Shown: in pieces, positions 1,756-19,536 of the stretch | Position numbering within the stretch: the first letter of the stretch is position 1 | Layout of the letters: every line of letters begins with the position of its first letter | Origin: a bacterium | GTDB taxonomy: Bacteria > UBA9089 > CG2-30-40-21 > SBAY01 | Direction: 5' to 3' | DNA length: 19,597 bases | NCBI GenBank assembly: GCA_040757115.1 | Contig: JBFLYA010000055.1 | Coordinates: 1 to 19,597 of the forward strand | Position numbers and translations under genes: made by a program | Notes under the pieces: model-generated | What the model was told of the DNA's origin: nothing | Seen by the model: the letters and a program-made list of their open reading frames with translations, nothing else | The model's database searches: none

Positions 1756-1767
1756 AATAATTACCAT

Positions 1768-2556: not shown

Positions 2557-2576
2557 TCAAAAACCTCCTTCTTTTG

Positions 2577-2611: not shown

Positions 2612-2640
2612 TAATCTACCCTCAATACTCTTTTCCTTTC

Positions 2641-4477: not shown

Positions 4478-4583
4478 ATTGAAAATCCTCCTTATATTTG
4501 GTAATTGGTTAGGATAATTTAACGAAATTATTTTAATGAATTAATAGCGATTTGTCAAGTAAAAAATTAATTTAAAAAATCAG

Positions 4584-4612
4584 TTGACGAATTAAATTAA
4601 ATAAGTTATAAT
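4584..4612 (+). promoter_or_regulatory. Strong sigma70-type promoter of the E1-RING-Ubl operon
   Basis: TTGACG (4584-4589), a 17-base spacer and TATAAT (4607-4612) are near consensus. Transcription would begin near 4619-4620, only about 5-6 bases before the E1 ATG at 4625. No ribosome site fits between, so the first gene is probably translated from a leaderless or near-leaderless mRNA. Confidence 0.8.
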
Positions 4613-4624
4613 TAATGTGCATTA

Positions 4625-5800: not shown

Positions 5801-6013
5801 ATGTTTAATTTATTTGGGGCTAATAAGCCAACGCCTGTGTTATTAGTTTATTCGCAAACACCAATTGAGTGTGCGTATTGTCATACACCAGTAAAAACAG
5901 AAAGTATAGTTGTCAGATGTCCTATGTGTAACACCATTCACCATCCACAATGTTGGAAAGAAGGAAAAGGGTGTAGTGTTTTTGGTTGTAAAAATGCGCC
6001 GAAGAAAAAATAA
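5801..6013 (+). CDS. Small RING-like zinc protein, candidate E3
   Basis: A 70-residue protein that is almost entirely a binuclear zinc domain. The ligand pattern is C24-x2-C27, C40-x2-C43, H47/H48 and C51, C58 and C63, a C4HC3 arrangement like prokaryotic RING and RING-CH cross-brace domains. W52 after the sixth ligand is also typical. Its start follows the E1 stop codon without a gap, with GGGGAGG inside the end of the E1 gene, so translation is probably coupled. In this setting it is the natural E3 candidate, recruiting the charged E2 at 6530-7039. No substrate-binding domain is present; it could also serve as an adaptor. Confidence 0.82.
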   Translation: MFNLFGANKPTPVLLVYSQTPIECAYCHTPVKTESIVVRCPMCNTIHHPQCWKEGKGCSVFGCKNAPKKK

Positions 6014-6030
6014 TTTGGAGGAAAAAAATA

Positions 6031-6300
6031 ATGAGAATTGTTAATATTGAAATAGAAGATGTGACAGGGGCTAAAAGGCAACGAGCGGACATCCCGGATG
6101 ATGTCCCATTAAAAAGGGTTATTTCCGCTTTAGTTTCAAAAATGAAGTTGCCAACAGTTAGCCCAAGTGGTTCTCCGTTGAATTATCAATTACATCATAA
6201 AGCATCAGGTAGGTCTTTAAGTGAAAGTGATACATTAGCCAGTGCAGGAATACGAGAAGGAGCTGTTTTGAAAATACATCCCGTTGTTGTCGCTGGATAA
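6031..6300 (+). CDS. Ubiquitin-like beta-grasp protein
   Basis: An 89-residue protein with beta-grasp pattern: an N-terminal strand pair (MRIVNIEIEDVTGAKRQRAD), a helix around VPLKRVISALVSKM, the strand YQLHHKASGRSLSE and the terminal strand GAVLKIHPVVV. This matches the YukD/EsaB-like ubiquitin-fold group. It ends in ...VVVAG, a single glycine at the extreme C-terminus, so it would not need trimming before activation by the E1. Few lysines lie in the second half. TTTGGAGG supports the ATG. It stands between the RING and E2 genes, making it the probable modifier of the pathway. Confidence 0.85.
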   Translation: MRIVNIEIEDVTGAKRQRADIPDDVPLKRVISALVSKMKLPTVSPSGSPLNYQLHHKASGRSLSESDTLASAGIREGAVLKIHPVVVAG

Positions 6301-6311
6301 TTAGATGAGGA

Positions 6312-6361
6312 AGGTTAAGGTTAGGGAAGAGAAAGTCTCCTCTTCTTCCCTTCCTTAACCT
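6312..6361. terminator. Long hairpin after the Ubl gene
   Basis: AGGTTAAGG (6312-6320) pairs with CCTTAACCT (6353-6361). GGGAAGA and TCTTCCC extend the stem, and the loop is near 6335-6341. AAATCTTTT follows, a weak U-tract. It could attenuate transcription between Ubl and E2, or be a repeat relic. Confidence 0.45.
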
Positions 6362-6368
6362 AAATCTT

Positions 6369-6529
6369 TTATGGAGAAACGGATATGCTAACCCGCTGGC
6401 ATAAAGGACAATGAAAATAGTAGGTAGGAGATAGAAGGTGGGAGGTAAGGAGATAGGCGTGAGGAGTGATGTTTTCTTTACTTTCTACTTTCTACTCTCT
6501 ACTCTCTACTTCCTATTTTCAGGAGAAAG
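6369..6529 (+). repeat. 160-bp leader repeat, copy 2 (uninterrupted)
   Basis: This is the inverted, intact counterpart of the repeat before dedA. It runs from ATGGAGAAACGG through AAAGGA, AAAATAGT, the purine tract and the CTTTCTACT tract to TTTTCAGGAGAAAG at the E2 start. It holds the E2 ribosome site. A tiny frame MLTRWHKGQ (from 6386) corresponds in position to MSTGWTQRR in copy 1; whether it is translated is unknown. It shows the pre-insertion state of the element at 3383-3686. Confidence 0.85.
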
Positions 6530-7039
6530 ATGGAATATCAATCCCCAAGAAATTTACGATTAGAAGAAGATTATAAAAAGATGCAAGAATTGGTGAAAAA
6601 AAGCCCATTTATTACCTTTGAAGTCTCTGGTGATCCACCTAACAGGTATATTATTAACTATACCTGTCGAGGATTAAGGTTAGATGAGATAAGTAAACAG
6701 GTAATTATTGCTAATTTTCATCAAGTAGAAATTTATCTACCAACCGCTTATCCCAGAATAAGACCAAATTTAGAGTGGCTGACACCAATATATCATCCCA
6801 ATATTGGAACAAATAATCAAGTCTGTCTTGGTGGTTGGGCACCTTCAGAAAGTCTGGATAGACTTTGTGTCCGATTAGGGGAGATGATTCAATATAAGAA
6901 TTTTGATGAATATGACCCAATAAACGCCAGTGCCGCGGCCTGGGCTTTGAAAAATCACGATAAATTACCTATTGACCCACGACCATTAGAGGCGGATGAA
7001 CCACAATTAAAAGGAGCATACGAAATTAAATTATCATAA
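6530..7039 (+). CDS. E2-like ubiquitin-conjugating (UBC fold) enzyme
   Basis: A 169-residue protein with a UBC core. YPRIRPNLEWL (74-84) corresponds to the E2 YPxxxP strand. H89-P90-N91 is the HPN motif and C99 in NNQVCLGGW is the catalytic cysteine, at the same spacing from HPN as in eukaryotic E2s (N+8). W103 follows, as in many E2s. Helices flank the core at both ends. It would receive the modifier from the E1 and work with the RING protein. The ATG follows AGGAGAAAG supplied by the leader repeat. Its distance from Ubl (229 bp) and JAB (512 bp) is due to inserted repeats; otherwise the five genes form one operon in one direction. Confidence 0.92.
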   Translation: MEYQSPRNLRLEEDYKKMQELVKKSPFITFEVSGDPPNRYIINYTCRGLRLDEISKQVIIANFHQVEIYLPTAYPRIRPNLEWLTPIYHPNIGTNNQVCLGGWAPSESLDRLCVRLGEMIQYKNFDEYDPINASAAAWALKNHDKLPIDPRPLEADEPQLKGAYEIKLS

Positions 7040-7059
7040 TCAGTGAACAGTGCTGTACC

Positions 7060-7527
7060 TGTTTAGCGTGGTCAGAGAGCACAAATGAATGGTACTGACT
7101 TAGTGCGAAACCACTTCAAACACAACAAATTGTGTAATACAAAATCAAAAATTAAATATTAAAATGCAAAATGACATATCAAATATCAAAAAATCTTGAC
7201 TTCGTGTTTAATTTATTGCCTTACAAGTATACAGGTTTGCAAAAACTTTCTTGAAAGAATTCAAGGGGTCAAGGGATCCAGGGGTCGAGTGAACACCTTA
7301 TTTTTCACCTTCCTTGAATCCTTGACCCCTCGAATCCTTGATCCCTTTTTAGAGCAAAATATTTGCAAACTCAATTTATTTGGGTATATTTTTGCATTTT
7401 GCTTTGTCCTTTTGATTTTTACATTTTGATATTTGCATTAAACTCCTTGTGGAATATTTCGCACCAGTATCCTATTGTTTAACAAAGGTTACTTCTCAAA
7501 TCAACGCAATTTGGAACACTCTAAACA
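7060..7527. mobile_element. 468-bp insertion between the E2 and JAB genes
   Basis: The ends TGTTTAGCGTG (7060-7070) and CACTCTAAACA (7517-7527) form a 10/11 inverted repeat. TGTACCTG occurs at 7054-7061 and 7528-7535, giving a 6-8-bp direct repeat across the junctions. Removing the element leaves a spacer of about 45 bp between E2 and JAB. Inside lie further nested inverted repeats: GTGCGAAA / TTTCGCAC, AT-rich AAATGCAAAATG-type tracts, and a core with CAAGGGGTCAAGGGATCC-like arms. I see no gene in this 512-bp gap; the frame at 7196-7429 is repeat sequence. Confidence 0.72.
7348..7388 (+). repeat. 41-bp exact repeat, copy 1
   Basis: A 41-bp sequence beginning TTTAGAGCAAAATATTTGC and ending TTTGGGTATA. 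It recurs exactly at 10397-10437. Here it is the right arm of the inner inverted repeat of the 7060-7527 element. Confidence 0.85.
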
Positions 7528-7551
7528 TGTACCTGAATTAGGAGAGTTTGA

Positions 7552-8208
7552 ATGAATACCTTTTCAAATGATGAGGAAATATTAAAAATTAGACTAACAA
7601 ACGAAGAGATAGTTAAACCTATCCCTGAAAAAATGCCACTACATAATCCAAATTATGCCATTAGATTATGTGTGGATAAACCAGAATATGCCTTGAAGAT
7701 ATTTGTTCCTATAGAGATAATGAAGCAGATACTTGATTACTCTAAAAAAGATACTACTCGAGAATTAGGTGGGGTCTTAATTGGTGATTATTGCCTTGAT
7801 AATAAGATTAAATCTATAAAAATATCGGATTTTATTGAGGCAAGAAATACTCAAGGTGACAATAGTCATATTAGATTTAACCATGAGACATGGAATGCGA
7901 TTGAACAGGAGAAAAAAACAAAGAAAATTCCTGAAGGAAAACAGATGGTCGGTTGGTTTCATACACACCCTGGCTGGGGAATATTCCTTTCAGAGGATGA
8001 TTTATTCATTCATCAAAATTTCTTTAATCTTCCCTGGCAGGTAGCAATGGTCGTTGACCCGCTTCAAAAAGAACAAGGATTTTTTATCTGGGAAAATGAT
8101 AAAATTATAAAATCAAGGGATTTTTATCTTTATACTATAAAAGAAAGGGAGAGTGAACTAATATCTTTTGTCCATTCACTTTCTCAAAGTAGAAAACTTG
8201 ACCGATAG
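7552..8208 (+). CDS. JAMM/JAB-domain metallopeptidase (deconjugase candidate)
   Basis: A 218-residue protein with a complete JAMM zinc-peptidase signature. E71 lies in RELGGVLIG. H137-T-H139-P-G, then S147 and D150, fit H-x-H-x7-S-x2-D. These residues bind catalytic zinc and activate water in isopeptidases such as Rpn11. The first 35 residues precede the domain and look disordered. AGGAGAG precedes the ATG. In this operon it is expected to remove the ubiquitin-like protein from targets; since that protein already ends in glycine, a maturation role is less likely. A 468-bp insertion separates it from E2, and pdxJ follows 55 bp later. Confidence 0.92.
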   Translation: MNTFSNDEEILKIRLTNEEIVKPIPEKMPLHNPNYAIRLCVDKPEYALKIFVPIEIMKQILDYSKKDTTRELGGVLIGDYCLDNKIKSIKISDFIEARNTQGDNSHIRFNHETWNAIEQEKKTKKIPEGKQMVGWFHTHPGWGIFLSEDDLFIHQNFFNLPWQVAMVVDPLQKEQGFFIWENDKIIKSRDFYLYTIKERESELISFVHSLSQSRKLDR

Positions 8209-8263
8209 AAAATAAGTTGATAAGGCAGAAACTTGTTTTCTTGTTTCTTTAAAAGGAGGAATT

Positions 8264-8980
8264 ATGCCAAAACTTGGAGTAAATGTTGACCATGTGGCAA
8301 CAGTCAGACAGGCACGAAAAGTTAAAGAACCGAACCCAATTATTGCCGCAATGATTGCTGAACTCGCTGGTGCGGATTCTATTGTCGTCCATTTAAGAGA
8401 AGATAGAAGGCATATTCAGGAACGCGATGTGCGAGTTTTACGCGAGATAATTACGACTAAGCTAAACTTAGAAATGGCCTCTACAGACGCTATGGTAAAA
8501 TTTGCCCTATCTTTAAAACCTGACCAGGCAACTTTAGTTCCGGAGCGCCGTGAAGAATTAACCACCGAAGGTGGTTTAAATGTTATTGAAAATAAAGAGA
8601 ATTTAGCCTCAGCCGTTAATTTATTACAAGATGCGGGAATTGTTGTCAGTTTATTTGTTGACCCGGATATTTCACAGATTAAAACCTCCTCAAAGATAAA
8701 TGTTACTGCGATAGAATTACATACTGGAAACTATGCTAATGCTACCAGTCCTCAACAGGCTCAAGAAGAATTAGAAAAATTAGAGGATGCCGCTTCTTTT
8801 GCCATAAAACAAGGTTTAGTCGTCAATGCTGGTCATGGGTTGAATTATCAAAATGTTATACCAATCGCTTCCATTCACGGAATAAATGAACTGAACATAG
8901 GACATTCAATCATTGCCCGGGCGATTTTAGTTGGGATGGACGAGGCAGTAAGAGAGATGTTGGAACTTGTAAGGAGATAG
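8264..8980 (+). CDS. pdxJ: Pyridoxine 5'-phosphate synthase
   Basis: A 238-residue TIM-barrel enzyme that condenses 1-deoxy-D-xylulose 5-phosphate with 3-amino-2-oxopropyl phosphate to form pyridoxine 5'-phosphate. Family blocks are [19 protein letters not shown] at the N-terminus, [46 protein letters not shown] and [11 protein letters not shown]. Length is normal. AAAAGGAGGA supports the start. Its presence shows that vitamin B6 is made by the DXP-dependent route. The next gene begins 10 bp after the stop. A short CTTGTTTTCTTGTTTC motif upstream resembles the repeat flanking the GxxExxY unit. Confidence 0.97.
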
Positions 8981-8989
8981 AGACAAAAA

Positions 8990-9691
8990 ATGTTAAAACC
9001 AGAAGATTTCTTTGATTTGTCTCATTTTGGACATAAAGCAATATTTGAAGATGTAGAGTATGTTTGGGAAGTATTGAAGAAAATCGAAACTTACATTAAG
9101 CAGGTGATTAAACCGCAGATTTCAGGCACAATTATGGATGGTGCGTTTTTAATCGGCGATAATATCCAGATTGGAAAAGGAACAGTAGTCGAACCAGGTG
9201 CTTTTATTGCTGAACCTACCATTATTGGCAAAAATACACAGATTAGACAGGGGGCTTATGTCCGCGGGAGTGTTATTGTTGGAGATGAATGTGTCGTTGG
9301 TCATACGACCGAAATGAAGAATGCGATTATGTTAAATAAGGCTAAAGCAGGTCATTTTGCCTATATTGGCGATTCTATTTTAGGAAATGAGGTTAATTTA
9401 GGGGCAGGAACTAAACTGGCTAACTTTAAATTTGAAAATCTCTCATCCACCGTAGATGTAAGGTGTAACGATAAAATTTATAAAACAGGATTGAGAAAAT
9501 TCGGTGCTATCTTAGGAGATAAAACCGAAACAGGTTGTAATTCAGTGATGACACCAGGTACTCTTTTGGGACCTAAATCCATTGTCTATCCTAATACTAC
9601 CGTTAAAGGTTATTATCCTGCTCATTCCATTATAAAATTAAGACAAAATTTAGAAGTAATTATTCAGCCACTGATTAGCACGGATAAATAA
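8990..9691 (+). CDS. Left-handed beta-helix (hexapeptide) protein, GlmU C-domain-like
   Basis: A 233-residue protein. The first 45 residues form a helical lead-in (MLKPEDFFDLSHFGHKAIF). Hexapeptide turns of a left-handed beta-helix run from about 48 to 125 (IMDGAFLIGDNIQIGKGTVVEPGAFI and so on), and more follow at 165-215. Such domains are found in GlmU and in sugar-nucleotide acyltransferases; this protein lacks a pyrophosphorylase domain. GlmM is encoded about 1 kb downstream, which makes UDP-GlcNAc or related sugar metabolism plausible, but the substrate is unknown. The last 12 codons (VIIQPLISTDK and stop) coincide with a repeat-element end, so the natural C-terminus seems to have been replaced. 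Confidence 0.82.
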   Translation: MLKPEDFFDLSHFGHKAIFEDVEYVWEVLKKIETYIKQVIKPQISGTIMDGAFLIGDNIQIGKGTVVEPGAFIAEPTIIGKNTQIRQGAYVRGSVIVGDECVVGHTTEMKNAIMLNKAKAGHFAYIGDSILGNEVNLGAGTKLANFKFENLSSTVDVRCNDKIYKTGLRKFGAILGDKTETGCNSVMTPGTLLGPKSIVYPNTTVKGYYPAHSIIKLRQNLEVIIQPLISTDK

Positions 9692-9727
9692 ATAGATAGC
9701 AGAAGATAGAGGTCAGAAGACAAAAGT
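9656..9727. repeat. Left end of a GTAAnnnTTCAG element overlapping the beta-helix gene
   Basis: GTAATTATTCAGCCACTGA at 9656-9674, followed by GCACGGATAAATA and a GCAGAAGATAGAGG tract, resembles 12132-12240 over about 70 bases. No matching right end is visible before the next element at 9731. It looks like a truncated insertion whose first bases now encode the end of the upstream protein. Confidence 0.6.
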
Positions 9728-9730
9728 TAG

Positions 9731-9905
9731 TGTGGTGTTGAGTAAGTTTTGCACGGCGTATCATCAGATTTCATAACCTGCAAACGGATAACTGGTAACT
9801 GGTTAAATAGTTTCGTCCTGAGATCAGCCAAACGGTATTTAATTACCAGTTACCAATCACCAGTTACCAGAATCAAATTCCGTGCGTTATTTGTTCAACA
9901 CGACA
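9731..9905. mobile_element. 175-bp MITE-like element with 26-bp imperfect ends
   Basis: The 26-bp ends (9731-9756 and 9880-9905) match as inverted repeats at 19 positions, with shared blocks GTGTTGA and GCACGG. A 4-bp TTAG occurs immediately on both sides. The interior holds an inverted GGTAACTGGT / ACCAGTTACC pair and no gene. It lies between the beta-helix and aspartic protease genes. Confidence 0.6.
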
Positions 9906-9957
9906 TTAGAAGATAGATGAGAACGGAGATTCGCAAAATTAGAGGGAGGTAAAGATA

Positions 9958-10383
9958 ATGGGAAAAATTATGGTAAGGATGAGAATAAGAAACCTTTTTG
10001 ATGAAGTAAGGGCAAAGAGTGGACTAATTAAAGAGGAGGAAGTCAGGGATATTACGGTTAATAATGCCCTGGTTGATACAGGGGCAACAATGCTTTCTCT
10101 ACCTATAACCCTTATTGAGGAATTGGGGCTTGAACAATCTGGAACAAGAGAGGTTAGAACAGCAAATGGTATAGTTACAAGAAGGGTCTTTAGTGAAGTA
10201 AGAGCTGAAATTCAAGGAAGAGAAGGAGGATTTCAGGTTTTAGAGCTGCCAGTAGATGTTGTGCCTCTGGTTGGTCAGATTGTCCTTGAGCAGCTTGACT
10301 TATACCCTGACCCCCAGAATCAAAGACTTACTGGAAGACCAGATGCCCCTGACCATATGGTGGTGGAATGCTATCTATCTTGA
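9958..10383 (+). CDS. Retropepsin-like (clan AA) aspartic protease
   Basis: A 141-residue protein with the single-domain aspartyl protease signature ALVDTGATMLSLP: D40-T41-G42-A43 is the catalytic D-T/S-G triad. A Leu-Gly-containing segment near VVPLVGQIVLEQLDL (about 96-110) corresponds to the second conserved hydrophobic-glycine element of retropepsins. With one triad per chain it must dimerise to be active. GAGGGAGGTAAAG before the ATG is a good ribosome site. No signal peptide or membrane helix is present. Such proteins are widespread in bacteria with unknown substrates; some neighbour toxin-antitoxin genes, which is not so here. Confidence 0.85.
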   Translation: MGKIMVRMRIRNLFDEVRAKSGLIKEEEVRDITVNNALVDTGATMLSLPITLIEELGLEQSGTREVRTANGIVTRRVFSEVRAEIQGREGGFQVLELPVDVVPLVGQIVLEQLDLYPDPQNQRLTGRPDAPDHMVVECYLS

Positions 10384-10396
10384 GGATTTCTTCCTG

Positions 10397-10437
10397 TTTA
10401 GAGCAAAATATTTGCAAACTCAATTTATTTGGGTATA
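10397..10437 (+). repeat. 41-bp exact repeat, copy 2
   Basis: Identical over 41 bases to 7348-7388, but here it stands alone just after the aspartic protease stop codon. It is 12 bases before the target-duplication/element junction at 10450. It is probably the remnant of the same kind of element as the inner core at 7230-7388. Confidence 0.8.
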
Positions 10438-10449
10438 GTTACAAAGGGG

Positions 10450-10689
10450 GTAACCGTTCAGGATATAGCCACAGAGTCACAGAGAACACAGAGGGAATAT
10501 ATAACCACGAATGAACACAAATACAAAAAGATTTGTAGTGCGAGGCGTTAGATTCGCTTCTGGCAAGCCAAAAGGCGAACTTAAAGGTTCGCACTACATT
10601 TATGGGATGTCAGAGGTTAATTCGTATCCATTTGTGACTAATTTCCTTAATTCTCTGTGAACTCTGTGTCTCTGTGGCTGAACGCTTAC
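10450..10689. mobile_element. MITE-like element, GTAAnCGTTCAG family, copy 3
   Basis: The ends are GTAACCGTTCAG (10450-10461) and CTGAACGCTTAC (10678-10689). CAAAGGGG is directly repeated at 10442-10449 and 10690-10697, an 8-bp target duplication. Subterminal AGCCACAGAGTCACAGAG / CTCTGTGTCTCTGTGGCT arms extend the inverted repeat. A second nested inverted repeat (TGTAGTGCGA / TCGCACTACA) lies in the middle. No gene. The right target copy includes the glmM ribosome site. Confidence 0.88.
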
Positions 10690-10707
10690 CAAAGGGGATT
10701 ATTTGTT

Positions 10708-12051
10708 ATGTCAGGATTATTTGGTACCGACGGGATACGGGGCGTGGCTAATCAGTATCCTATGACTGGACAATTTGCCGTCCAACTGGGATTTGCCGCC
10801 ACCAGGAAACTTTCACAAAGACAAAAAGCAAAAATAGTTGTGGGAAAAGACACACGCGTTTCTTCAGATATGCTTGAGGCAGGTTTAATTGCTGGAATTA
10901 CATCCGCAGGCGGCGATGTCCTGAAAGTAGGGATTCTTCCTACCCCAGCAATTGCCTATCTAACAAAATCATTATCTGCCTGTGCGGGCATTGTTATCTC
11001 CGCCTCTCATAACCCATTTCAGGATAATGGAATTAAATTCTTTGGCCCAGATGGACTGAAACTTAAAGATGAAATAGAAAACGAAATAGAAAATGCCTTA
11101 TCAGAAGATTTCAACTATCCACCCGCAGAAAATATTGGTCGAGTTATCGAAATAAAAGATGCAAATATCCAATACTTAAATTTTGTAAAAGAAATGGCAG
11201 GTGATTCATTATCTCTTAAGGGAATGAAAGTGGTTATTGATTGTGCCAATGGAGCGACAAGTTTTATCGCACCAACCTTATTTCAAGAAATAAAGGCAGA
11301 GGTTATTTCCTTGAACTATCAGCCTGATGGGAAAAATATTAATTTTGATTGCGGCTCACTTCATCCAGAAAAAGCCAGCCAAATGGTAAAAAATCAAAAT
11401 GCCTCAATCGGTCTTTGTTTTGATGGGGATGGAGATAGGGTAATTGCCATAGATGAAGAAGGGAAAATCGTGGATGGCGATTTTATAATGGCTATCTGCG
11501 CCAAACACCTTAAAGAAAATGAGATGTTAAATAACAACTTAGTTGTAACCACCGTAATGAGTAATATCGGATTTTATCTTGCTTTAAAAAGATTAAATAT
11601 CGATACAATTACAACTAAAGTTGGCGATAGATATGTTGTTGAACAGATGTTAGAAAAAAAGGCTGTTTTAGGTGGTGAACAATCTGGCCATATTATATTT
11701 TTAAACCATTTTCCTACTGGAGATGGAATGGTTACTGCCTTGCAACTTCTCACCGTTATGCAAAAGACTTCCTTGCCTCTATCTAAATTAACCCAAATAA
11801 TGAAAAAATATCCACAGGTATTGATAAATATTCGGGTTAAGGACAAAAAAACCGACCTTGAGTCTATTTCGGAAGTCCAATCTGCCATTAAATCAGGACA
11901 AGAATCTTTAAAAGAAGAAGGCAGAATATTAGTGCGATATTCCGGAACAGAATATTTAGCCCGAGTGATGGTAGAGGGTCCTACCGAAGATGAAATCAAT
12001 AAAATAGCCAACAATATCGCCAATATCATAAAAGAAAAAATAGGGGTGTAA
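10708..12051 (+). CDS. glmM: Phosphoglucosamine mutase
   Basis: A 447-residue enzyme that interconverts glucosamine 6-phosphate and glucosamine 1-phosphate for UDP-GlcNAc and cell-wall synthesis. The N-terminus MSGLFGTDGIRGVAN, the active-site phosphoserine loop ISASHNP (S100), the Mg-binding GDGDR, the sugar-binding GGEQSGH and the C-terminal phosphate-binding RYSGTE are all present, and the length is normal. The start at 10708 is set by the family N-terminus and by AAAGGGG ten bases upstream; an earlier in-frame start at 10657 lies inside the inserted element. That insertion separates the gene from its original upstream sequence but duplicated the ribosome site. Confidence 0.97.
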   Translation: MSGLFGTDGIRGVANQYPMTGQFAVQLGFAATRKLSQRQKAKIVVGKDTRVSSDMLEAGLIAGITSAGGDVLKVGILPTPAIAYLTKSLSACAGIVISASHNPFQDNGIKFFGPDGLKLKDEIENEIENALSEDFNYPPAENIGRVIEIKDANIQYLNFVKEMAGDSLSLKGMKVVIDCANGATSFIAPTLFQEIKAEVISLNYQPDGKNINFDCGSLHPEKASQMVKNQNASIGLCFDGDGDRVIAIDEEGKIVDGDFIMAICAKHLKENEMLNNNLVVTTVMSNIGFYLALKRLNIDTITTKVGDRYVVEQMLEKKAVLGGEQSGHIIFLNHFPTGDGMVTALQLLTVMQKTSLPLSKLTQIMKKYPQVLINIRVKDKKTDLESISEVQSAIKSGQESLKEEGRILVRYSGTEYLARVMVEGPTEDEINKIANNIANIIKEKIGV

Positions 12052-12062
12052 TGAAAATTTTT

Positions 12063-12120
12063 CGACCTGTGCAGTTAAGATAAACCACGAAGGGCACGAA
12101 GACCACGATGAAAAAATATT
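12063..12120. repeat. Solo CGACCTGTG element end
   Basis: TTTTTCGACCTGTG at 12058-12071 repeats the left end of the element at 3383, and ACCACGATgAAAAAATATT before 12121 resembles the sequence near that element's right end (about 3655-3670). No right terminus is found here, so this is a fragment, possibly disrupted by the next insertion. Confidence 0.5.
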
Positions 12121-12609
12121 GTAACTATTCAGTAATTATTCAGCCACAGATTAACACAGATTGACACGGATAAATAGCAAAGGGCAGAAGGCAGAGGGCA
12201 GAAGGCAGAGGGCAGAGGAGACAGAAGACAGAGGTCAGAGGCGGATTATCCCCCGCTGGCGGGGGTTAGGGATGACTACCTCATTTGGTGAATATTTCAG
12301 AATCGATTATCCCCCGCTGGCGGGGGTTAGGGATGACTACCTCATTTGGTGAATATTTCAGAATCGATTATCCCCCGCTGGCGGGGGTTAGGGGGTAGAA
12401 ATTTCCTCCACTGACACAGATGAAATCAGGCTCGGGGCACCCATGCAGAGCATGGGTCGTGCGCCTACCAGCCTTCCCGAGTCCCGAACCCCGAGTCCCG
12501 AGTCCCGATTTTCAGAAGAACCCTTCAGCCTAATTACGGACACGGATACCGGACACGATTTACGAATTTTCAGTGTTTCATCCGTGTCCATCTGTGGCTG
12601 AATAGTTAC
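12121..12609. mobile_element. Composite repeat element, GTAAnnnTTCAG family, copy 4
   Basis: GTAACTATTCAG (12121-12132) and CTGAATAGTTAC (12598-12609) are perfect 12-bp inverted ends, and subterminal CAGCCACAGAT / ATCTGTGGCTG extends them. No target duplication is apparent. The interior stacks several repeats: a GGCAGAAGGCAGAG purine tract (about 12180-12240), the 61-bp tandem array, a hairpin ACCCATGCagaGCATGGGT and tandem CCCGAGT units (12475-12510). It fills most of the 948-bp gap between glmM and the PIN gene. No believable gene. Confidence 0.7.
12244..12395. repeat. 61-bp tandem repeat, about 2.5 copies
   Basis: Units begin at 12244, 12305 and 12366 and are identical where they overlap. 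Each contains the GC-rich hairpin CCCCCGC-TG-GCGGGGG. With a 61-bp period and no unique spacers it is a minisatellite and not a CRISPR array. Confidence 0.9.
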
Positions 12610-12646: not shown

Positions 12647-12870
12647 ATCCCCGGAATGAACAAAACTGAAGGTAACATCCGAATTCGAGCAAAGCGAGAA
12701 TCCGTAAGAATGTTGCGTAAGCAAAATGTTGCGAAGCAAAAAATGCCCCAAAAAGCAAATTCCTATCAGTTAAAGAGTCCACTGGATACCTTGAACCTGA
12801 AGAAAGGAAGGTGAGAGGTGGCAAAAGATTGTTAATAGAAGGAGTATTCTCGCTTTTCAGCCAGAGTTGG

Positions 12871-12934
12871 GATATCCGAAGTACTTCGGATATCACCCCA
12901 AAATTGGGGGTATATCCGAACTTGTTCGGATATA
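12871..12934. promoter_or_regulatory. Three adjacent palindromes upstream of the PIN toxin promoter
   Basis: A perfect 24-bp palindrome (12871-12894, arms GATATCCGAAGT), a CCCCAA-aa-TTGGGG hairpin (12896-12909) and a second 24-bp hairpin (12911-12934, arms TATATCCGAAC) follow each other. The half-site CGGATAT recurs at 12954-12960 within the PIN promoter spacer. They may be operators for autoregulation, or part of the first recombination site of the array. Confidence 0.6.
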
Positions 12935-12939
12935 AACAA

Positions 12940-12956
12940 GTTATCTGCCATTGCGG
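12940..12956 (+). other. Left boundary of cassette A (PIN/antitoxin)
   Basis: GTTATCTGCCATTGCGG is the inverse complement, at 15 of 17 positions, of CCGCAACAGCAGATAAC at 13669-13685, which lies just after the antitoxin gene. The GTTA core matches those of the other boundaries (13977 and 18738). This is the pattern of integron cassette ends. Confidence 0.65.
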
Positions 12957-12980
12957 ATATATGATAATCTATGGTAAAAT
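12951..12980 (+). promoter_or_regulatory. Promoter of the PIN toxin gene
   Basis: TTGCGG (12951-12956), 18 bases, TAAAAT (12975-12980), then GAGAGGAG and the start codon at 13000. The -35 is weak. A CGGATAT half-site overlaps it, so repression by an antitoxin complex is possible. Confidence 0.55.
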
Positions 12981-12999
12981 ATAGAGAGGAGAAACTCAA

Positions 13000-13479
13000 A
13001 TGAAGAAAGAAAGTTTGTATCTTGATACCTCAGTTCCCAGTGCTTATTATGATGAGAGGGTAATGTGGCGACTTGCATATACAAGAGAGTGGTGGAGGGA
13101 TGAACTTTCTAAATATGATATTTTCATCTCAGAGATAGTGATTGCTGAAATAAGAGGCACAGAGGAATCAAGAAGGAGAACTGAATTATTAGAGTTAGTA
13201 AAAGAATTTGGAGAACTTAAGTTATCTCCTGAAATAGAAGAGATAGCCAAGGGATATGTTAATCAAAAGGTTATCCCTCAAACTCATTTTCCAGATGCTT
13301 TGCATATAGCCCTTGCCTCATTCCATAAGATTGATTTTTTGATTACATGGAATTGTGAACATCTCGCAGAGGCTCATAGACGAAGGAAGGTTAGGTTATT
13401 CAACACCTCTGCAGGTCTGTTTGTCCCTGAAATAGTAACTCCAATGGAACTTGTAGAGGGAGGTGAAGAAGATGTATAA
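13000..13479 (+). CDS. PIN-domain ribonuclease toxin (VapC-like)
   Basis: A 159-residue PIN-domain protein. Conserved acidic positions are D9 in LYLDTSVPSAY, E45/E50 in ISEIVIAEI and D99 in FPDALHIALA, followed by FLITWNCEHLAEA (N118). These form the metal-binding centre of PIN ribonucleases, which in toxin-antitoxin pairs cleave RNA. GAGAGGAG precedes the ATG. The stop codon overlaps the start of the next small gene by eight bases (ATGTATAA), so the two are co-translated. Toxin-first order is the reverse of classical vapBC but is common for this subgroup. It forms, with its partner, a cassette bounded at 12940 and 13685. Confidence 0.88.
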   Translation: MKKESLYLDTSVPSAYYDERVMWRLAYTREWWRDELSKYDIFISEIVIAEIRGTEESRRRTELLELVKEFGELKLSPEIEEIAKGYVNQKVIPQTHFPDALHIALASFHKIDFLITWNCEHLAEAHRRRKVRLFNTSAGLFVPEIVTPMELVEGGEEDV

Positions 13480-13654
13480 AAGAGACCCTATGTTAGAGGA
13501 GATTCATAAGATTAGAAGGAAAATATGGGATGAAAGTGAACATAATCCTCATTCTTTGGTAGAGAATATCCAAAAAGAAGCCAAGGAGTTTATTGAAGAG
13601 TGTGGATACAGATATGTGGATACAGGAGACGGTTATAGAAAGATTGTCAAGTAA
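13472..13654 (+). CDS. Putative antitoxin partner of the PIN protein
   Basis: A 60-residue protein beginning MYKRDPMLEEIHKIRRKIWDE. The ATG at 13472 is chosen because GAGGGAGG lies at 13457-13464; a GTG at 13463 would add three residues. It is highly charged. The helix DPMLEEIHKIRRKI and the following NIQKEAKEFIEECGYRY fit the small proteins commonly encoded with PIN toxins, which bind and block the toxin. No ribbon-helix-helix or other DNA-binding motif is obvious, so autoregulation is uncertain. Identification rests mainly on position and overlap. Confidence 0.75.
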   Translation: MYKRDPMLEEIHKIRRKIWDESEHNPHSLVENIQKEAKEFIEECGYRYVDTGDGYRKIVK

Positions 13655-13668
13655 GATAAAATGCAGAC

Positions 13669-13995
13669 CCGCAACAGCAGATAACACGGTGTAAAAGACT
13701 ACACTTCGTTCCGTCCAAATTCTGCTTACGCAGAACTTCTTTTACACCGAAAACGATAACCAAAATGTCGCTTCGCTCCATTTTGGTTATGGGGATGCGG
13801 ATGAGCGAAAGGCGAAAGCTTTATGTAACTCAAAGGGGATTTTTTGAAAAAGGGAAGTTGCGAAGCGTCACTTCGGCTATCAGCGGCGGGGCACCTGCTT
13901 GCGGGTCGGGGCTGAAGCCAAAATGCCCCCCGACCCACTTCGTGGGTACCCCGGGCACTTCGCTCATCCGCATCCAGTTAGGCGACATTTTGCTT
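13669..13995. repeat. Long attC-like recombination site 1
   Basis: From inverse core AGATAAC (13679-13685) to core GTTAGGC (13977-13983), 305 bp. Internal structure: stem CGGTGTAAAAGA / TCTTTTACACCG (about 13686-13750), short hairpin ATAACCAAAATG / CATTTTGGTTAT (about 13756-13790), then a perfect 17-bp pair GGATGCGGATGAGCGAA (13793-13809) / its complement (13959-13975). The body 13754-13976 is highly similar to 18493-18737. It is GC-richer than the genes around it. The frame at 13765-14013 is an artefact. No separate gene lies in this 371-bp gap. Confidence 0.7.
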
Positions 13996-14025
13996 GGTGA
14001 ACTATACGATTAATGAGGTTGTAAA

Positions 14026-14847
14026 ATGGACAAAATACATCCAAATAATAAATTAAATGATTTACCAGGGGATAAATGGATTTTTTTAACCCAGTCTGTT
14101 ATTAAAACAAATTATCCCAAAAATCACGGATTTTTACTTCGTCAGCAACACGGTGCAAATAAACCACCAGAACTTATGAAAGATTTGATTCTATTTTTTA
14201 CTAAAAAAGACTCAACGGTTTTTGATCCTTTTGCAGGGGTTGGAGGAACTTTATTAGGTGCATCTTTATGTGGGAGAAAAGCTTTAGGAGTTGAGATAAA
14301 CCCAAAATGGATTTCAATATATAAAGAAGTATGCAAAGATGAAAATATTAAGCAACAAGAGATTATTGAGGGTGATTGTCTTGAGATAATGGATGCTCTT
14401 ATACATGCGAAAAAAAAGTTTAGTCTGATTCTTACAGATCCTCCCTACAATATTAATCTTGAAAGAACAATGTGCCGTGGGGACTATCCTAATAGAAATA
14501 GACATACAGATTTTAAAGAGTTTTCTAAATATGCCCAAGATTTCAGCAATTGTAAAACATATGAACACTATTTAGATAAGATGGCACTTTTTATTGAAAG
14601 AAGTTTTAAGTTGCTATTCAAAAATAAATATTTGATAATACTGACTAAAAATGCTTACCAAAATGGCAAATATATATTAGTAAACCAAGATATAGCAAAA
14701 ATAGCACAATCTCGCGATTTTACTTTGAAAGGTGAAATCATCTGGTGTCAAAATGGTGTTCGTTTACGTCCCTATGGTTATCCGTTCAGCTATGTACCAA
14801 ATATAATTCATCACAACATACTTATCTTTAAAAAAGAGGTGTTATAA
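14026..14847 (+). CDS. DNA methyltransferase (N6-adenine/N4-cytosine type)
   Basis: A 273-residue S-adenosylmethionine-dependent DNA methyltransferase. Motif I is FDPFAGVGGTLLGA (D67-T75, AdoMet binding), preceded by the motif X-like HGANKPPELMKDLI (42-55). The catalytic motif IV is TDPPYN (137-142). The order X-I-IV differs from the usual beta-class order. No endonuclease or specificity gene is adjacent, so it either marks self DNA or modifies DNA as part of the mechanism of the following genes. GAGG lies seven bases before the ATG. Its stop overlaps the next start (TAATG), making the first of three translationally linked genes inside cassette B. Confidence 0.9.
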   Translation: MDKIHPNNKLNDLPGDKWIFLTQSVIKTNYPKNHGFLLRQQHGANKPPELMKDLILFFTKKDSTVFDPFAGVGGTLLGASLCGRKALGVEINPKWISIYKEVCKDENIKQQEIIEGDCLEIMDALIHAKKKFSLILTDPPYNINLERTMCRGDYPNRNRHTDFKEFSKYAQDFSNCKTYEHYLDKMALFIERSFKLLFKNKYLIILTKNAYQNGKYILVNQDIAKIAQSRDFTLKGEIIWCQNGVRLRPYGYPFSYVPNIIHHNILIFKKEVL

Positions 14848-17426
14848 TGGATCTACCCCGTAATCCTTTCGATATCATAAGAACTGAAGATTTTAATACC
14901 AATTATAAAATCATAGCTCAATATTTTAGTGACCCACATGCTACTTATTATTCAAATCTGACAAGAAGAGGAAATGTAATTCTTGTTGGTACACGCGGGT
15001 CTGGTAAGACGATGCTATTAAAATCATTATATCTCCCAGTGCAAATTGAAATCATGAAGAAAGAAGGTAAAGACCCATGCACTCATTCATTAGATTTTAT
15101 TGGGATATTAGTTAATTGTGAGAGGTATGAGTTTAAGATATTCCGAGAAAATATTTACAGTTATCAGATGGAGCATAATAACGAAGAAAAAATAAGGTAC
15201 TTCTGGAAACAATGTATGGGACATTACTTTGCTCTTTTTATAATTGAGGAAATGCTAAACACAGTTATTAATTATGGAGCAGATATTGGATTAAACTTGC
15301 AAGACCCATTATATGAAATATTATCAAACCAAATCTGTGAGATATGTCGTATAGAACTATCTGCCTCTTTTGATTCTTTAGGTGATATATTAAAAAGGAA
15401 ACGATTAGAGTTTTCACAACTACTTTCAATGTCTATACTTAATTTAGATTATTCCATTGCGAACAACCGCTTCGATTTATCTGCGGTTATTGAAGTTGGC
15501 AATACCTTAAAGAAAATCCCAAGATTCAAAAATGCAAGATTTTATATCCTGTTAGATGACTTTTTCTATCCAAATTTAGCTGATGAGCAACAAAAAATTC
15601 TTCTGGAATTAATTCGGGTAAGGAATGAACCTCTTGCTTTCAAAATAGCGACACTCCCTGGAGGTATGGTATTTACAGATGCCAGTGGATTTGAATTAAT
15701 GGGGCGAGGTGATGATTTTACTATTGAGTCCATAGAATATTCTGAATTAGGAGAAAGAAGTGATTATTATAAACTCATTAAAGACATAGTTAATAATCGT
15801 GTGAAAGACTATGAATTAGTAGCTGATGATCTATTTCAAAAAAGCAATGATACTATAAAAGATTTTTTGTCAAAACTAAAAGGGGAAGTAGGAAAAGGTC
15901 ATATTAGACCTGAATATGCAGGATTTGATAGTTTAGTCCATATGAGTTCCGGTGTTGTTAGAACATTCTTAGTATTAGCTAAAAAAATCTTGGATAAACA
16001 GCTACAGCAAAAAAATGCAGAGCGATTAGATAGAACTATTTTACCTATCCCAGTTGATATTCAGTCAGAAGTGGTATATTCAGAATCTTCACTATTTTTA
16101 GATGCAATTGCGAGTAGAGAAAAAGGATCACTTATATCAAAGATTGTTTATTTTGTTGGTAATGAATCAAGGCAAAAACTCTTAAATAATCAAGTCGCTA
16201 ATGAGTATATACAATTGCAAATAAAAAATTATGTTGATATTAAACCAGAAGTACAAGAGATACTAACTAAAGCAGTAACCAATAATGTTTTCCATACATA
16301 CCAGTTATCCCATAGAACAACAAGAAGAGGAGCAGTATCTATAGAGTCCCTTATCCTTAACAGACTATTAACTCCTGCATTAAGAATCCCTTATCATGAT
16401 CGGTGGCGGATGGATATAGATGCACAACAAATTAATAAGATACTTGGTGATATTGCTCCGATTGACATTTCTTACCACAAACCGCAACCACAAAAGAGTT
16501 TTATTAGTCAATATTGTCCAGTAATATCTGGTGACTGTGATAGAATAGACCCAAATCTTAAAGAAGATGGTTGCTTTTATGCCTCACCAATAAGAAACGA
16601 TTGGACATCTTTCGCAAAAGATTTATTTAAGAAGCAATTTTCTAAATTTGAAGTTGCAATTGAACAGCCACCAAAGGGTGATTTAACCTGCAAAATCTGT
16701 GAGATGATACATAATGCCCATTTTGGTATATACGAATTAACAGATCTTAATGAAAATGTAGTCTTTGAACTTGCCCTTGCATTATCTCGAGAAAAACATT
16801 GTTTTTTTGTTGCTAACACTGAATATCCGGTAGAGCAAATTGAGGCTATGCTGGGCAAAGAGTATATACCTTATCAGGTAGTAGATAGTGAAATTGAAAA
16901 ACTGTGTCAAGAAAAAATTCTTCCTATTGTAAATTCTGGAGATGAACCATGGAATACAAAGATAATAAAAGGAATAAATACTGTTCCTGCAAACAAAACT
17001 GTATTACTGGCTATGCCAAAAGAATCTCTTTATTATGAGAAAACATTAACCAATGGAGTCAAAGACATTTTAGAGAAAGAATTAGGTTTGGAAGTAATCA
17101 TTCCTTCTCAATATTCTATCGGCAATTGGTTCTCGAATTTAGTTAATGATGTAAAAAGAACAAAATATTGTTTCATTGATACAACTTTACCGAGTCAATA
17201 TAATAACTTTAATGGAAGATTTTCGCCTAAAGAACTTGATTATTTACAAAGAGTATTCATATTCGGACTTAGCGTTGGTTTTAGAAAAATAATTTTACAT
17301 GGATATAATACTGCATATAGTAAAAAGATATTTACAGATATGCAAGGACATTGCCATTTTGAATATTCTGATTCCAAACTGTTTGAAGAGATTAGAAAAA
17401 GGGTACCAGAGGTGTTCCATGAATAA
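14847..17426 (+). CDS. Large P-loop ATPase with tandem nucleoside-deoxyribosyltransferase/TIR-like domains
   Basis: An 859-residue cytoplasmic protein. The N-terminal ATPase has Walker A VGTRGSGKT (47-55) and Walker B FYILLDDFF (232-240), resembling ORC/CDC6- or STAND-type modules; a helical region extends to about 550. CPVISGDC (557-564) leads into a first C-terminal Rossmann-like domain. It starts CFYASPIRNDW (576-586) and contains NENVVFELALALSREKHCFFVAN (635-657), like the NxNVxxELG signature of nucleoside 2-deoxyribosyltransferases, with E641 the probable catalytic glutamate. A second, degenerate copy (717-855; KTVLLAMP, YCFIDTT, VFIFGLSVGFRKIILH) lacks that glutamate. I infer an NTP-driven sensor coupled to a nucleotide-cleaving effector. 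RBS AAAGAGGTG lies inside the preceding gene. Confidence 0.8.
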   Translation: MDLPRNPFDIIRTEDFNTNYKIIAQYFSDPHATYYSNLTRRGNVILVGTRGSGKTMLLKSLYLPVQIEIMKKEGKDPCTHSLDFIGILVNCERYEFKIFRENIYSYQMEHNNEEKIRYFWKQCMGHYFALFIIEEMLNTVINYGADIGLNLQDPLYEILSNQICEICRIELSASFDSLGDILKRKRLEFSQLLSMSILNLDYSIANNRFDLSAVIEVGNTLKKIPRFKNARFYILLDDFFYPNLADEQQKILLELIRVRNEPLAFKIATLPGGMVFTDASGFELMGRGDDFTIESIEYSELGERSDYYKLIKDIVNNRVKDYELVADDLFQKSNDTIKDFLSKLKGEVGKGHIRPEYAGFDSLVHMSSGVVRTFLVLAKKILDKQLQQKNAERLDRTILPIPVDIQSEVVYSESSLFLDAIASREKGSLISKIVYFVGNESRQKLLNNQVANEYIQLQIKNYVDIKPEVQEILTKAVTNNVFHTYQLSHRTTRRGAVSIESLILNRLLTPALRIPYHDRWRMDIDAQQINKILGDIAPIDISYHKPQPQKSFISQYCPVISGDCDRIDPNLKEDGCFYASPIRNDWTSFAKDLFKKQFSKFEVAIEQPPKGDLTCKICEMIHNAHFGIYELTDLNENVVFELALALSREKHCFFVANTEYPVEQIEAMLGKEYIPYQVVDSEIEKLCQEKILPIVNSGDEPWNTKIIKGINTVPANKTVLLAMPKESLYYEKTLTNGVKDILEKELGLEVIIPSQYSIGNWFSNLVNDVKRTKYCFIDTTLPSQYNNFNGRFSPKELDYLQRVFIFGLSVGFRKIILHGYNTAYSKKIFTDMQGHCHFEYSDSKLFEEIRKRVPEVFHE

Positions 17427-18405
17427 CATTCTCAAATACTTTGAAGCGGGTAGACCAAATATCTATTTTTGTGGATACGGTTTTGAAGAGAGATCCATTG
17501 GTTTGCTTTCTATTATTCGTGGAAAAGCATCATTTGACTACGCCTTTTCTATTGGATTTCCCTCGTCATTTTTAGGAACTACCCTTCTTTGGAGACAAAA
17601 TAAAGCATTTACTGATGATTGTCTTGCCACAATGGCTAAAAATTATGAAGTCATAGATATATCTGTAAAACAACCAGTTGAGGTAAGACAAAATCTAAAT
17701 GAGAAAATAAAAAAGTTTAATTTAAACTTTCAGAAATTTAAAACAATTGTAGATATAACTTCATTTCCTAAATCAACATTATTTATGCTTTTAAAAGAAT
17801 TAGTTGAGTCTAAAGCTTCTGGCTATCTTTTTTATATAGAGCCTATTGATTATGAACTTCCAATCTCTTTGGGTGTTAAAGACATCAGAACTTTGCCCTT
17901 TTTTGGTGATAACTACGACTCAAAGAAACAAAAATTACTTATTGAAATATTGGGGTTTGAGGGGCTTAGAGCCTATGCGATATGGGAGACATTTGATCCA
18001 CATAAAACAATAGCATTTATTGGAGTGCCATCTTTATTGAATCAAAAATGGAAGAATATTGCTGAACAGGAAAATGGATTGCTTCTATCTAGACCAAATG
18101 TTATCAAGAGAGAAATTTCCTTTACTAGTATTGAAGAGGCTACCAATACCTTAGAAGAAATATATGAAGAAGAGGGTGATAAATACAACATAATTGTAAG
18201 TTCATTGGGGACGAAACTTTCAGCTATATCACTTTTTTATTTTGCAAATCGCCATAAGAATGTATTTGTTACATTTTCTAGGCCTGAGGAACATACGGAA
18301 CACTATTCATATGGTTGCAAGAAATTGATTGTCATTGCTTTCAATTGTAAGGCTGCTGATGTTATAGATTCGTATGATTTTAAAAATAAAAATGAAAATG
18401 AATAA
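17419..18405 (+). CDS. Unrecognised FEERS-motif protein, Rossmann/CARF-like in outline
   Basis: A 328-residue protein with no family I can name. It begins with strand-loop NIYFCGYGFEERSIGLL (14-30). It later has TIVDITSFPKSTLFMLL (109-125) and NIIVSSLGTKLSAISLFYF (257-275), where a hydrophobic strand runs into a Gly/Ser/Lys loop and then a helix. This pattern suggests two Rossmann-like sheets that bind a nucleotide or small ligand, possibly CARF-like; this is inference. No membrane segment or signal. AGAGGTG lies ahead of the ATG, and its start overlaps the ATPase stop by eight bases. The stop codon is two bases from the inverted end of cassette B. Confidence 0.78.
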   Translation: MNNILKYFEAGRPNIYFCGYGFEERSIGLLSIIRGKASFDYAFSIGFPSSFLGTTLLWRQNKAFTDDCLATMAKNYEVIDISVKQPVEVRQNLNEKIKKFNLNFQKFKTIVDITSFPKSTLFMLLKELVESKASGYLFYIEPIDYELPISLGVKDIRTLPFFGDNYDSKKQKLLIEILGFEGLRAYAIWETFDPHKTIAFIGVPSLLNQKWKNIAEQENGLLLSRPNVIKREISFTSIEEATNTLEEIYEEEGDKYNIIVSSLGTKLSAISLFYFANRHKNVFVTFSRPEEHTEHYSYGCKKLIVIAFNCKAADVIDSYDFKNKNENE

Positions 18406-18406
18406 T

Positions 18407-18757
18407 AAGCAAAACGGTCGCCTAACAGCGTGTTTACGCAAGGGCTAAAGCCACATTGCTCCCTACGGTCGCAACGTCGTAACCACGCAAATCGATAACC
18501 AAAATGTCGTTTCGCTCCATTTGGGTTATCGGGATGCGGATGAGCGAAAGGCGGAAGCTTTATGTAACTCAAAGGGGATTTTTTGAAAAAGGGAAGTTGC
18601 GCTGCGTCACTTCGGCTATCAGCGGCGGCGGGGCACCCACGAAGTGGGTCGCGCTTGCGGGTCGGGGCTGAAGCCAAAACTTGTAGTGAGCCTGTCGAAC
18701 CTATGCCCCTGTGGAGCACTTCGCTCATCCGCATCCCGTTATACGCAATGCCGTGCC
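18407..18757. repeat. Long attC-like recombination site 2
   Basis: From inverse core GCCTAAC (18420-18426) to core GTTATAC (18738-18744), 325 bp. It has the same plan as site 1: a first stem of different sequence (GCGTGTTTACG / CGTAACCACGC), the short hairpin GATAACC...GGTTATC, then the same perfect 17-bp pair (18532-18548 / 18720-18736). The body is highly similar to site 1 but has different inserts in the loop (about 18640-18715). Ahead of it, AAGCAAAACGGTCGCCTAAC is complementary to the start of cassette B at 13977. There is no other gene in this 373-bp gap. Confidence 0.7.
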
Positions 18758-18778: not shown

Positions 18779-19258
18779 ATGGCATACAAAGTTTTTATAA
18801 GTCACAGCACTCGAGATCAGCGATTAGTAATTACACTTGCAAATATCCTTTCAAAATTTGGAGTGGATGTATCAGTTGCAGAGTGGTATCTATCTCCAGG
18901 ACAACAACTTGATAAGAAAATATTTGAAAAGATAGAGAATTCTGATTGTGTGATTGTTTTATTAACACAAAATGGTATCCGGTCAAATTGGGTACAACAA
19001 GAAATAGGGTATGCATTGAAGTCTGGTAAATCTCTTATTCCTCTTGTAGAGAAAGGGATAAATCAAAAAGAGTTAGCATCGTTGCAGGGTAAAGAGTATA
19101 TTGAATTTGATTCTTATCAACCTCAACAATCGCTGATTAAAACTTCTACTTTTGTGAAGTCACTGAAGTTAAAAAAGGAGCAACAAGAGAAAGCATTACT
19201 CATTACAGGGGGTATTCTTGCTTTCCTGTTATTACTTTCTGGAGGAGAAAAAGAATGA
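18779..19258 (+). CDS. TIR-domain protein with C-terminal membrane helix
   Basis: A 159-residue protein. The TIR domain spans about 3-130: YKVFISHSTRDQRLV, the middle strand DCVIVLLTQNG, and SNWVQQEIGYALKSGKSLIPLV. E75 in the last motif is the position of the catalytic glutamate in NAD-cleaving TIRs. Residues 139-156 (ALLITGGILAFLLLLSGG) form a single membrane helix at the C-terminus. Bacterial TIR proteins commonly act as NADase effectors in anti-phage defence; activity here is inferred. The ATG at 18779 is chosen because GGAGG lies just before it. The stop overlaps the next start (ATGA). It is the first gene of the cassette beginning at 18738. Confidence 0.88.
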   Translation: MAYKVFISHSTRDQRLVITLANILSKFGVDVSVAEWYLSPGQQLDKKIFEKIENSDCVIVLLTQNGIRSNWVQQEIGYALKSGKSLIPLVEKGINQKELASLQGKEYIEFDSYQPQQSLIKTSTFVKSLKLKKEQQEKALLITGGILAFLLLLSGGEKE

Positions 19259-19536
19259 AAACGATTTCATATCTGCCTCTTAAGGATAAGTTATCATTGA
19301 AGCTTCGCACTGTGAAAGGCAAGCCTACAAAAGAGGTTGGACGATTTAAATTATGGTGGAATAAACAAGGTGTTATTTATGCTCTTGATATTGACCAATT
19401 CTTAGAGGAACTAAAGGAATTTGAAAAAGCACGAGGTTGGATACAGTTAGGAGGCATCTGGAAAAACATAACTATTACTCGATGTTCAAGTTTTTGGATA
19501 GGACTCAATATGATAGAAGTTTTTGGCACGAATTAG
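19255..19536 (+). CDS. Small unrecognised protein coupled to the TIR gene
   Basis: A 93-residue protein of unknown family. It begins MKTISYLPLKDKLSLKLRTVKGKP, then RFKLWWNKQGVIYALDIDQFLEELKEFEKA, a strand-rich part followed by a helix, and ends ITRCSSFWIGLNMIEVFGTN. No membrane helix or signal. GGAGGAGAAAAAG in the end of the TIR gene serves as ribosome site and the ATGA overlap implies coupling. It may be a regulator or partner of the TIR protein. The following 61 bases to the window end contain no recognisable feature. Confidence 0.7.
   Translation: MKTISYLPLKDKLSLKLRTVKGKPTKEVGRFKLWWNKQGVIYALDIDQFLEELKEFEKARGWIQLGGIWKNITITRCSSFWIGLNMIEVFGTN

Follow-up and report, generated by a model that had tools for sequence, protein, structure and literature searches.

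In described integrons, the additional domain (I2 helix) of the integrase is treated as the defining feature of IntI and as a requirement for cassette capture (PMC9668308, PMC7790495). This helix is said to be absent from other proteins, and intermediates in the evolution of integrases are lacking (PMC7790495). The recombination sites of cassettes, attC, measure 57–142 nt in their canonical form (PMC2727003). An integron with an integrase devoid of the additional domain, here termed patch-less, was not reported in the literature searched, which left most subscription papers and bioRxiv outside its scope. Within this study, a stretch of 19,597 nucleotides (the window), representing the complete contig C55 of a metagenome-assembled genome from a phylum that includes UBA9088, was analyzed. 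Based on comparison, the window is likely to belong to a distinct class of patch-less integrons in which recombination involves a folded strand. All evidence for this class is comparative, and recombination was not observed.

Chromosomal genes fill positions 1–12400 of the window, comprising phosphate-transport genes, a ThiF/E2/JAB cluster as well as glmM-like and pdxJ-like genes; names of genes without a family match were assigned by reading the open reading frames (ORFs). The integron starts at position 12773 and consists of the 3' remnant of an integrase gene, an attI composed of two palindromes and three cassettes in one orientation (Table 1). With high confidence, the window can be interpreted as the platform end of an integron array, i.e., the attachment site and the first cassettes. 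Misbinning of the metagenome-assembled genome is possible, yet the array is continuous with the chromosomal genes. Moreover, the same integron system is carried by G001, a genome of the same genus.

Further features were observed outside the integron. Consecutive genes at 4625–8208, encoding E1-like (ThiF), E2-like (UQ_con) and JAB-domain proteins and including a small ubiquitin-like ORF, were read as a bacterial ubiquitin-like conjugation cluster. Part of this cluster is bracketed by a 97-nt inverted repeat (3277–3373 and 6423–6519; 96% complementary, copies 3 kb apart). Just 5' of the integron, a 61-bp unit starting with GATTATCCCCCGCTGGCGGGGGTTAGGG forms 2.5 mismatch-free repeats (12244–12393).

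Table 1. Features of the integron part of the window.
Feature	Position	Strand	Basis
3' remnant of patch-less integron integrase gene, KSPLDTLNLKKGR followed by stop	12773..12814	+	in-frame match to C-terminus of C154 fragment
attI	12871..12939	+	palindrome 1 (12871-12894), CACCCCAAAATTGGGGG spacer, palindrome 2 (12911-12934), AACAA before crossover
R' extended end, cassette A, GTTATCTGCCATTGCGG	12940..12956	+	sequence, pairing
Cassette A gene 1, PIN-domain protein	13000..13479	+	Pfam PF01850
Cassette A gene 2, 60-aa ORF overlapping PIN gene	13472..13654	+	read from sequence
R'' extended end, cassette A, CCGCAACAGCAGATAAC	13669..13685	+	complementary to 12940-12956
Site 1, ordinary attC hairpin (L'' ... 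L')	13686..13749	+	L''/L' stem covarying across 33 sites
Site 1, added gene-less module	13755..13976	+	repeat, fold; stem 2 13755-13790; stem 3 arms 13793-13809 and 13959-13975
R' extended end, cassette B, GTTAGGCGACATTTTGCTT	13977..13995	+	sequence, pairing
Cassette B gene 1, N6/N4 DNA methyltransferase	14026..14847	+	Pfam PF01555, PADLOC MTase_II
Cassette B gene 2, ORC-CDC6-like ATPase	14847..17426	+	Pfam PF24389, 207 bits
Cassette B gene 3, CARF6-like protein	17419..18405	+	PADLOC CARF6 model, 108 bits
R'' extended end, cassette B, AAGCAAAACGGTCGCCTAAC	18407..18426	+	sequence, pairing
Site 2, ordinary attC hairpin	18427..18492	+	site comparison, covarying stem
Site 2, added gene-less module	18494..18737	+	repeat comparison
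R' extended end, cassette C	18738..18757	+	sequence, pairing
Cassette C gene 1, TIR-domain protein	18779..19258	+	Pfam PF13676, 81 bits
Cassette C gene 2, 93-aa ORF without family match	19255..19536	+	ORF list, Pfam search

The initial annotation, made from sequence alone, stated that the window contains no integrase gene. This is true of an intact gene; the in-frame 3' end is still present and matches a fragment on contig C154 of the same genome, a tyrosine recombinase truncated to 168 aa that stands before an attI. This broken gene is the genome's own patch-less integrase, and intact patch-less copies were found in related genomes. Sites resembling the attI of the window also occur on C154, C96, C258, C58 and C69, and the first cassette behind them differs in each case. 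The integrase 3' end together with attI was identified on C55, on C154, on contig C62 of G001 and in G019, and C96 retains a remnant of it. Behind AACAA/GTT, which lies at position 12940 in the window, the first cassettes differ among C55, C154, C258, C58, C69, G001, G042 and G019. The attI is located at the 3' end of the recombinase gene, and cassettes are joined to it at AACAA/GTT. Furthermore, the arms of the attI palindromes co-vary (8.5/11 within loci vs. 5.6/11 between loci); such greater likeness within a locus would be anticipated for integrases that each bind a sequence of their own. The window genome also encodes a full patch-bearing IntI on C39 (368 bits) as well as IntI fragments; since its own patch-less integrase is truncated, present cassette movement in this genome could depend on IntI in trans. 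Weak matches to the IntI profile TIGR02249 at C50 and C157 were rejected, as the tree placed them among Xer-like housekeeping enzymes.

For cassettes A and B, the initial annotation claimed that each start recurs as an inverse complement before the following site, and this held base for base. The ends of cassette A are complementary in 15 of 17 positions, for which the probability by chance is about 6e-5 over 746 bp. The accompanying claim of an integron cassette logic is supported by cassette-specific ends, GTTRRRY cores, common orientation, copies in the genome and the integrase–attI platform. An inverse complement of the start of cassette C was predicted to follow soon after position 19597, which cannot be checked directly because the contig ends there. 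On contig C96, the sequence GGCACGGCACAGCGTATAAC, close to the predicted GGCATTGCGTATAAC, directly precedes another full site; no overlap between C96 and the window end was found, and C96 is therefore not shown to hold the same cassette.

Regarding the cassette genes, the second ORF of cassette A might encode an antitoxin, which is an inference only. The type of gene set found in cassette B is probably an anti-phage system travelling as a cassette. A counterpart of cassette B (13977–18737) was observed in the distant genome G019 (L169, C82, 6611–10378), where a cassette encodes ORC-CDC6-like and CARF6-like proteins. The first 17 bases of both cassettes, GTTAGGCGACATTTTGC, are identical and the gene families are shared, with proteins only 23–32% identical. 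A common origin of the two cassettes is conceivable and was left undecided.

In total, 40 cassettes were compared, the first 16–21 nt of which pair with the bases before their own attC. Own pairs reached a prefix score of 13.2 versus 5.9 for shuffled partners (top of 2000 shuffles: 7.3), and end-pair identity was mostly 0.8–1.0 through position 16. Position 11 is occupied by A in 38 of 40 R' ends and by G in 36 of 40 reverse-complemented R'' ends; the resulting A:C mismatch (C before attC) corresponds to a G:T pair on the bottom strand. As the R'' partner was defined as the best-scoring downstream place for each cassette, the pairing length is biased upward, whereas the position-11 mismatch is unaffected. 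Outside the discovery set, this mark was present in all eight cassettes considered (five from Rufibacter, one from Chryseobacterium, blaVEB-1 and tet(X3)), and the class 1 cassette aadB, serving as a control, lacks it. Since aadB pairs over 12 nt without the mark, moderate extension alone is not diagnostic. The possibility that all integrons share the extended pairing was ruled out for the ordinary IntI arrays in this genome set, in which pairing spans approximately 8–10 nt and falls to background by about position 10. Within one such IntI-type array on C39 (L041, C39:5000–24000), a cassette with extended ends and the position-11 mark was observed at 14477–17671, which indicates that the two integron classes have exchanged material within a single cell.

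Folding of the sites was evaluated as well. The L'' and L' boxes of 33 sites are highly variable in sequence while their pairing is kept, with 30–33 of 33 sites paired at positions 2–10 compared to 11–28 after shuffling. Canonical attC are characterized by extrahelical bases on the R''-L'' arm; here, the L box comprises 10 bp without a bulge, and a CTTC motif before L' hints at an opposite-arm asymmetry deeper in the stem. For 19 of 20 canonical sites, the bottom strand was more stable, by 4.5 kcal/mol on average (DNA parameters, rejoined attC). Every cassette is thus equipped with an attC that is able to fold and whose ends match the start of the respective cassette by pairing. Cassette-specific paired ends, the position-11 mismatch, bottom-strand stability and covarying L boxes together represent the signature of a site that is recognized as a folded strand.

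According to the initial annotation, the two site bodies of the window are nearly the same and the attC sites span about 300 bp. The first claim held (D1 91%, D5 100%, D9 96% identical), and the pair GGATGCGGATGAGCGAA and TTCGCTCATCCGCATCC was found in both window sites; about 15 site copies are distributed over eight contigs of the window genome. The second claim held in part: the sites are composites in which a hairpin of 64–66 bp (stem 1), the attC proper, is followed by a module of about 220 bp at the place of the expected next GTT core. The hairpin is ordered as AAC, one base, L'' box, loop, L' box, approximately five bases and the next core. The module begins with GATAACC in place of GTTRRRY and ends with CTTCGCTCATCCGCATCC(N)GTTRRRY. 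Hairpins of the same type were found without and with the module (canonical C84:3449 vs. composite C154:623; C258:3719 vs. C65:17114), and module-free sites of the same genome run straight into GTTRRRY, which places the module exactly at the cassette crossover point. Most module-free hairpin sites are 55–124 nt long, two being longer, and fit the canonical attC length, whereas composite sites (207–345 nt) exceed it. Shorter versions of the module occur on C84 and C150, in G001 and in UBA3073.

The module may represent a gene-less cassette that was inserted at the crossover of an ordinary attC, became fixed by a GTT-to-GAT change and would now be carried along with many cassettes. This inferred reading is the weakest part of the interpretation, the left core being GAT and not GTT. 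Alternatively, the module could be a small non-autonomous element targeting attC, comparable to IS1111-attC or group IIC introns. Near-identical copies behind many different attC hairpins speak for this explanation, as does the left core GAT, which is odd for cassette integration. It is opposed by the lack of terminal inverted repeats at the two ends of the module, by the absence of a transposase, an intron-encoded protein or any protein-coding family, and by the right end, which equals one half of a canonical attC (L' and an ATCCC spacer) and also occurs in the short site C65:3207. An Rfam search of the module returned no family match. The element explanation is considered less likely than not, and a non-autonomous, attC-targeting form cannot be excluded. 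A further rival explains the entire array as genomic debris, namely REP-like hairpins that multiplied around ordinary genes without recombination. Many small GC-rich palindromes are present in the genome, and parts of the module (D6) resemble them. Cassette-specific complementary ends, the conserved A:C position, junctions between attI and first cassettes and covarying stems contradict this explanation, which can practically be dismissed.

Intact copies of the patch-less recombinase gene are provided by related genomes. When GTDB contigs were scanned for exact matches to the right end of the site, few true relatives (L112, L114) emerged, leading to UBA3073. In this genome (L114), an attI and a cassette start follow an open frame of 322 codons at a distance of about 100 bp. 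The integrase gene was detected in 12 of 147 genomes of the UBA3073/WOR-3 phylum, and in six genomes of this phylum besides UBA3073, long open frames stand before an attI. Behind the intact copies lies an attI and, if the contig extends far enough, a cassette start with GTTRRRY. In the alignment, the distance from the K box to HxxRH amounts to 64–65 residues versus 106 in IntI of the same genome set; all patch-less integrases are about 41 residues short at the position of the additional domain (I2 helix) and fail the test for this IntI-specific domain. No match to TIGR02249 above the curated cut-off of 265 bits was obtained for the UBA3073 genome. The best match therein consists of two pieces (129 and 100 bits) split around the missing domain, the profile being matched at 2–180 and 233–315, and the G112 copy also remains below the cut-off (225 bits). 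One intact copy scored 244 bits, above the cut-off, with NF040815 (recomb_XerA_Arch). The top PDB match was IntI4 (157 bits), residues 172–238 of the chain being unaligned, followed by XerA (139 bits). In the phylogenetic tree, the patch-less group (support 95/94) adjoins IntI (100/99), both being separate from XerC/D (100/99).

Patch-less relatives were also found beside IS91-type transposases (G024), so that the occurrence of the family is not restricted to integrons. Among 80 relatives kept by the protein scan, no attI was detectable in a screen that recognized few ORFs, and viral contigs gave no attI match. The N-termini of the patch-less integrases (L243, L244 and L246) are extended by a region (YNPxFVxxIKTIxGHRWHPxxKYWxFP...) that matched no Pfam family.

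Relatives of the recombinase also reside on plasmids, including those of Bacteroidota. Behind the integrase of Rufibacter tibetensis stands an array of small genes in one orientation, comprising at least five cassettes, each of which shows the position-11 mark. Chryseobacterium plasmids harbor the integrase, an attI (ATATAAACAA/GTT) and a cassette that likewise bears the mark. On Acinetobacter tet(X3) plasmids, the upstream 'tyrosine-type recombinase' belongs to the patch-less family and lacks the additional domain; it is followed by GGATATATACGCCATTTGGCGTATAGCCACTT/GTTATGTGCCATTTTT and then tet(X3), whose end pairs with its own start at 12 of 16 positions and bears the mark. In K. pneumoniae JM45, a related recombinase remnant and attI directly precede blaVEB-3. 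In most other plasmids, similarity starts at or a few bases from that G/TT; these include class 1 integrons with blaVEB-1 as a cassette, which possesses the mark, its neighbor aadB being without it. The blaVEB cassette is present both at a patch-less-type attI and in class 1 integrons, the junction falling on an identical base. This double occurrence provides only indirect evidence for excision and integration by the integrase, recombination itself not having been observed. It is also inferred that blaVEB and tet(X3) derive from patch-less integrons, probably in Bacteroidota. In the records of the clinical plasmids, the recombinase–attI remnants directly 5' of tet(X3) and blaVEB-3 (L347, L348) are annotated merely as tyrosine recombinase or not at all.

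An opposing view holds that the arrays are CALINs, ordinary integron arrays lacking an integrase of their own, which are served in trans by a standard IntI with the additional domain, and that the patch-less recombinase adjacent to attI is an unrelated Xer-like enzyme. The complete and fragmentary IntI genes of the window genome, the single cassette of the extended-end type inside an IntI-type array and the carriage of blaVEB-1 cassettes by class 1 integrons are in line with this view; IntI1 evidently handles one such cassette too. However, the IntI arrays in these genomes represent a different attC family without extended ends, the patch-less gene was located immediately beside attI at numerous loci from several phyla, and the UBA3073 genome contains arrays in the absence of an IntI above the cut-off. 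The CALIN explanation is accordingly regarded as improbable, and a patch-less integron class is preferred. Three criteria for an integron are fulfilled, namely a recombinase gene beside attI, different cassettes at the G/TTRRRY junction and a foldable attC favoring the bottom strand.

For this class, it is proposed that a recombinase without the additional domain was once encoded directly 5' of the two-palindrome attI, its last codons remaining in the window. By inference from known integrons, this enzyme would join circular cassettes to attI via the folded bottom strand of attC, and the G:T pair at position 11 would aid strand choice by making the bottom-strand hairpin more stable. In a bolder reading, a second integron class occurs in four or more phyla, Bacteroidota among them, and recombines cassettes as folded single strands. 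Its integrase either lost the I2 helix or never possessed it, an extended R box and a G:T strand mark being used in its place, and the class would be the source of blaVEB and tet(X3) in clinical plasmids. Taken as a joint claim, this reading is favored, albeit with considerable reservation. If functional, an integron without the I2 helix would represent one of the lacking evolutionary intermediates or an independent solution, and searches for integrons would have to change what they look for. As blaVEB-1 and tet(X3) show the same signature, it is suggested where these two important resistance genes may have originated and why genes of Bacteroidota reach class 1 integrons and Acinetobacter plasmids.

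Compared to known systems, the window class shares the attI platform, cassettes in one orientation, the G/TTRRRY crossover and a foldable R''-L''-L'-R' attC with IntI integrons (class 1 and sedentary chromosomal ones), whose integrase is related to the patch-less enzyme. In contrast to these integrons, its integrase has no additional domain (I2 helix), its cassette ends pair over 15–21 nt with a conserved mismatch at position 11, and its L box is bulge-free over 10 bp with spacers of about 1 and 5 nt. Archaeal integrons likewise feature attI immediately 3' of the integrase gene, but their IntI possess the additional domain (PMC9668308). XerA and other Xer recombinases resemble the patch-less integrases in having a catalytic domain without this addition; unlike them, the patch-less group clusters with IntI rather than with the XerC/D of the hosts and is located at an attI with cassettes. 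Finally, the plasmid regions described as 'xerD'–tet(X3) and recombinase–blaVEB show, like the window family, a recombinase directly 5' of an attI-like palindrome and a gene; their records annotate separate pieces, which are read here as a platform and its first cassette.
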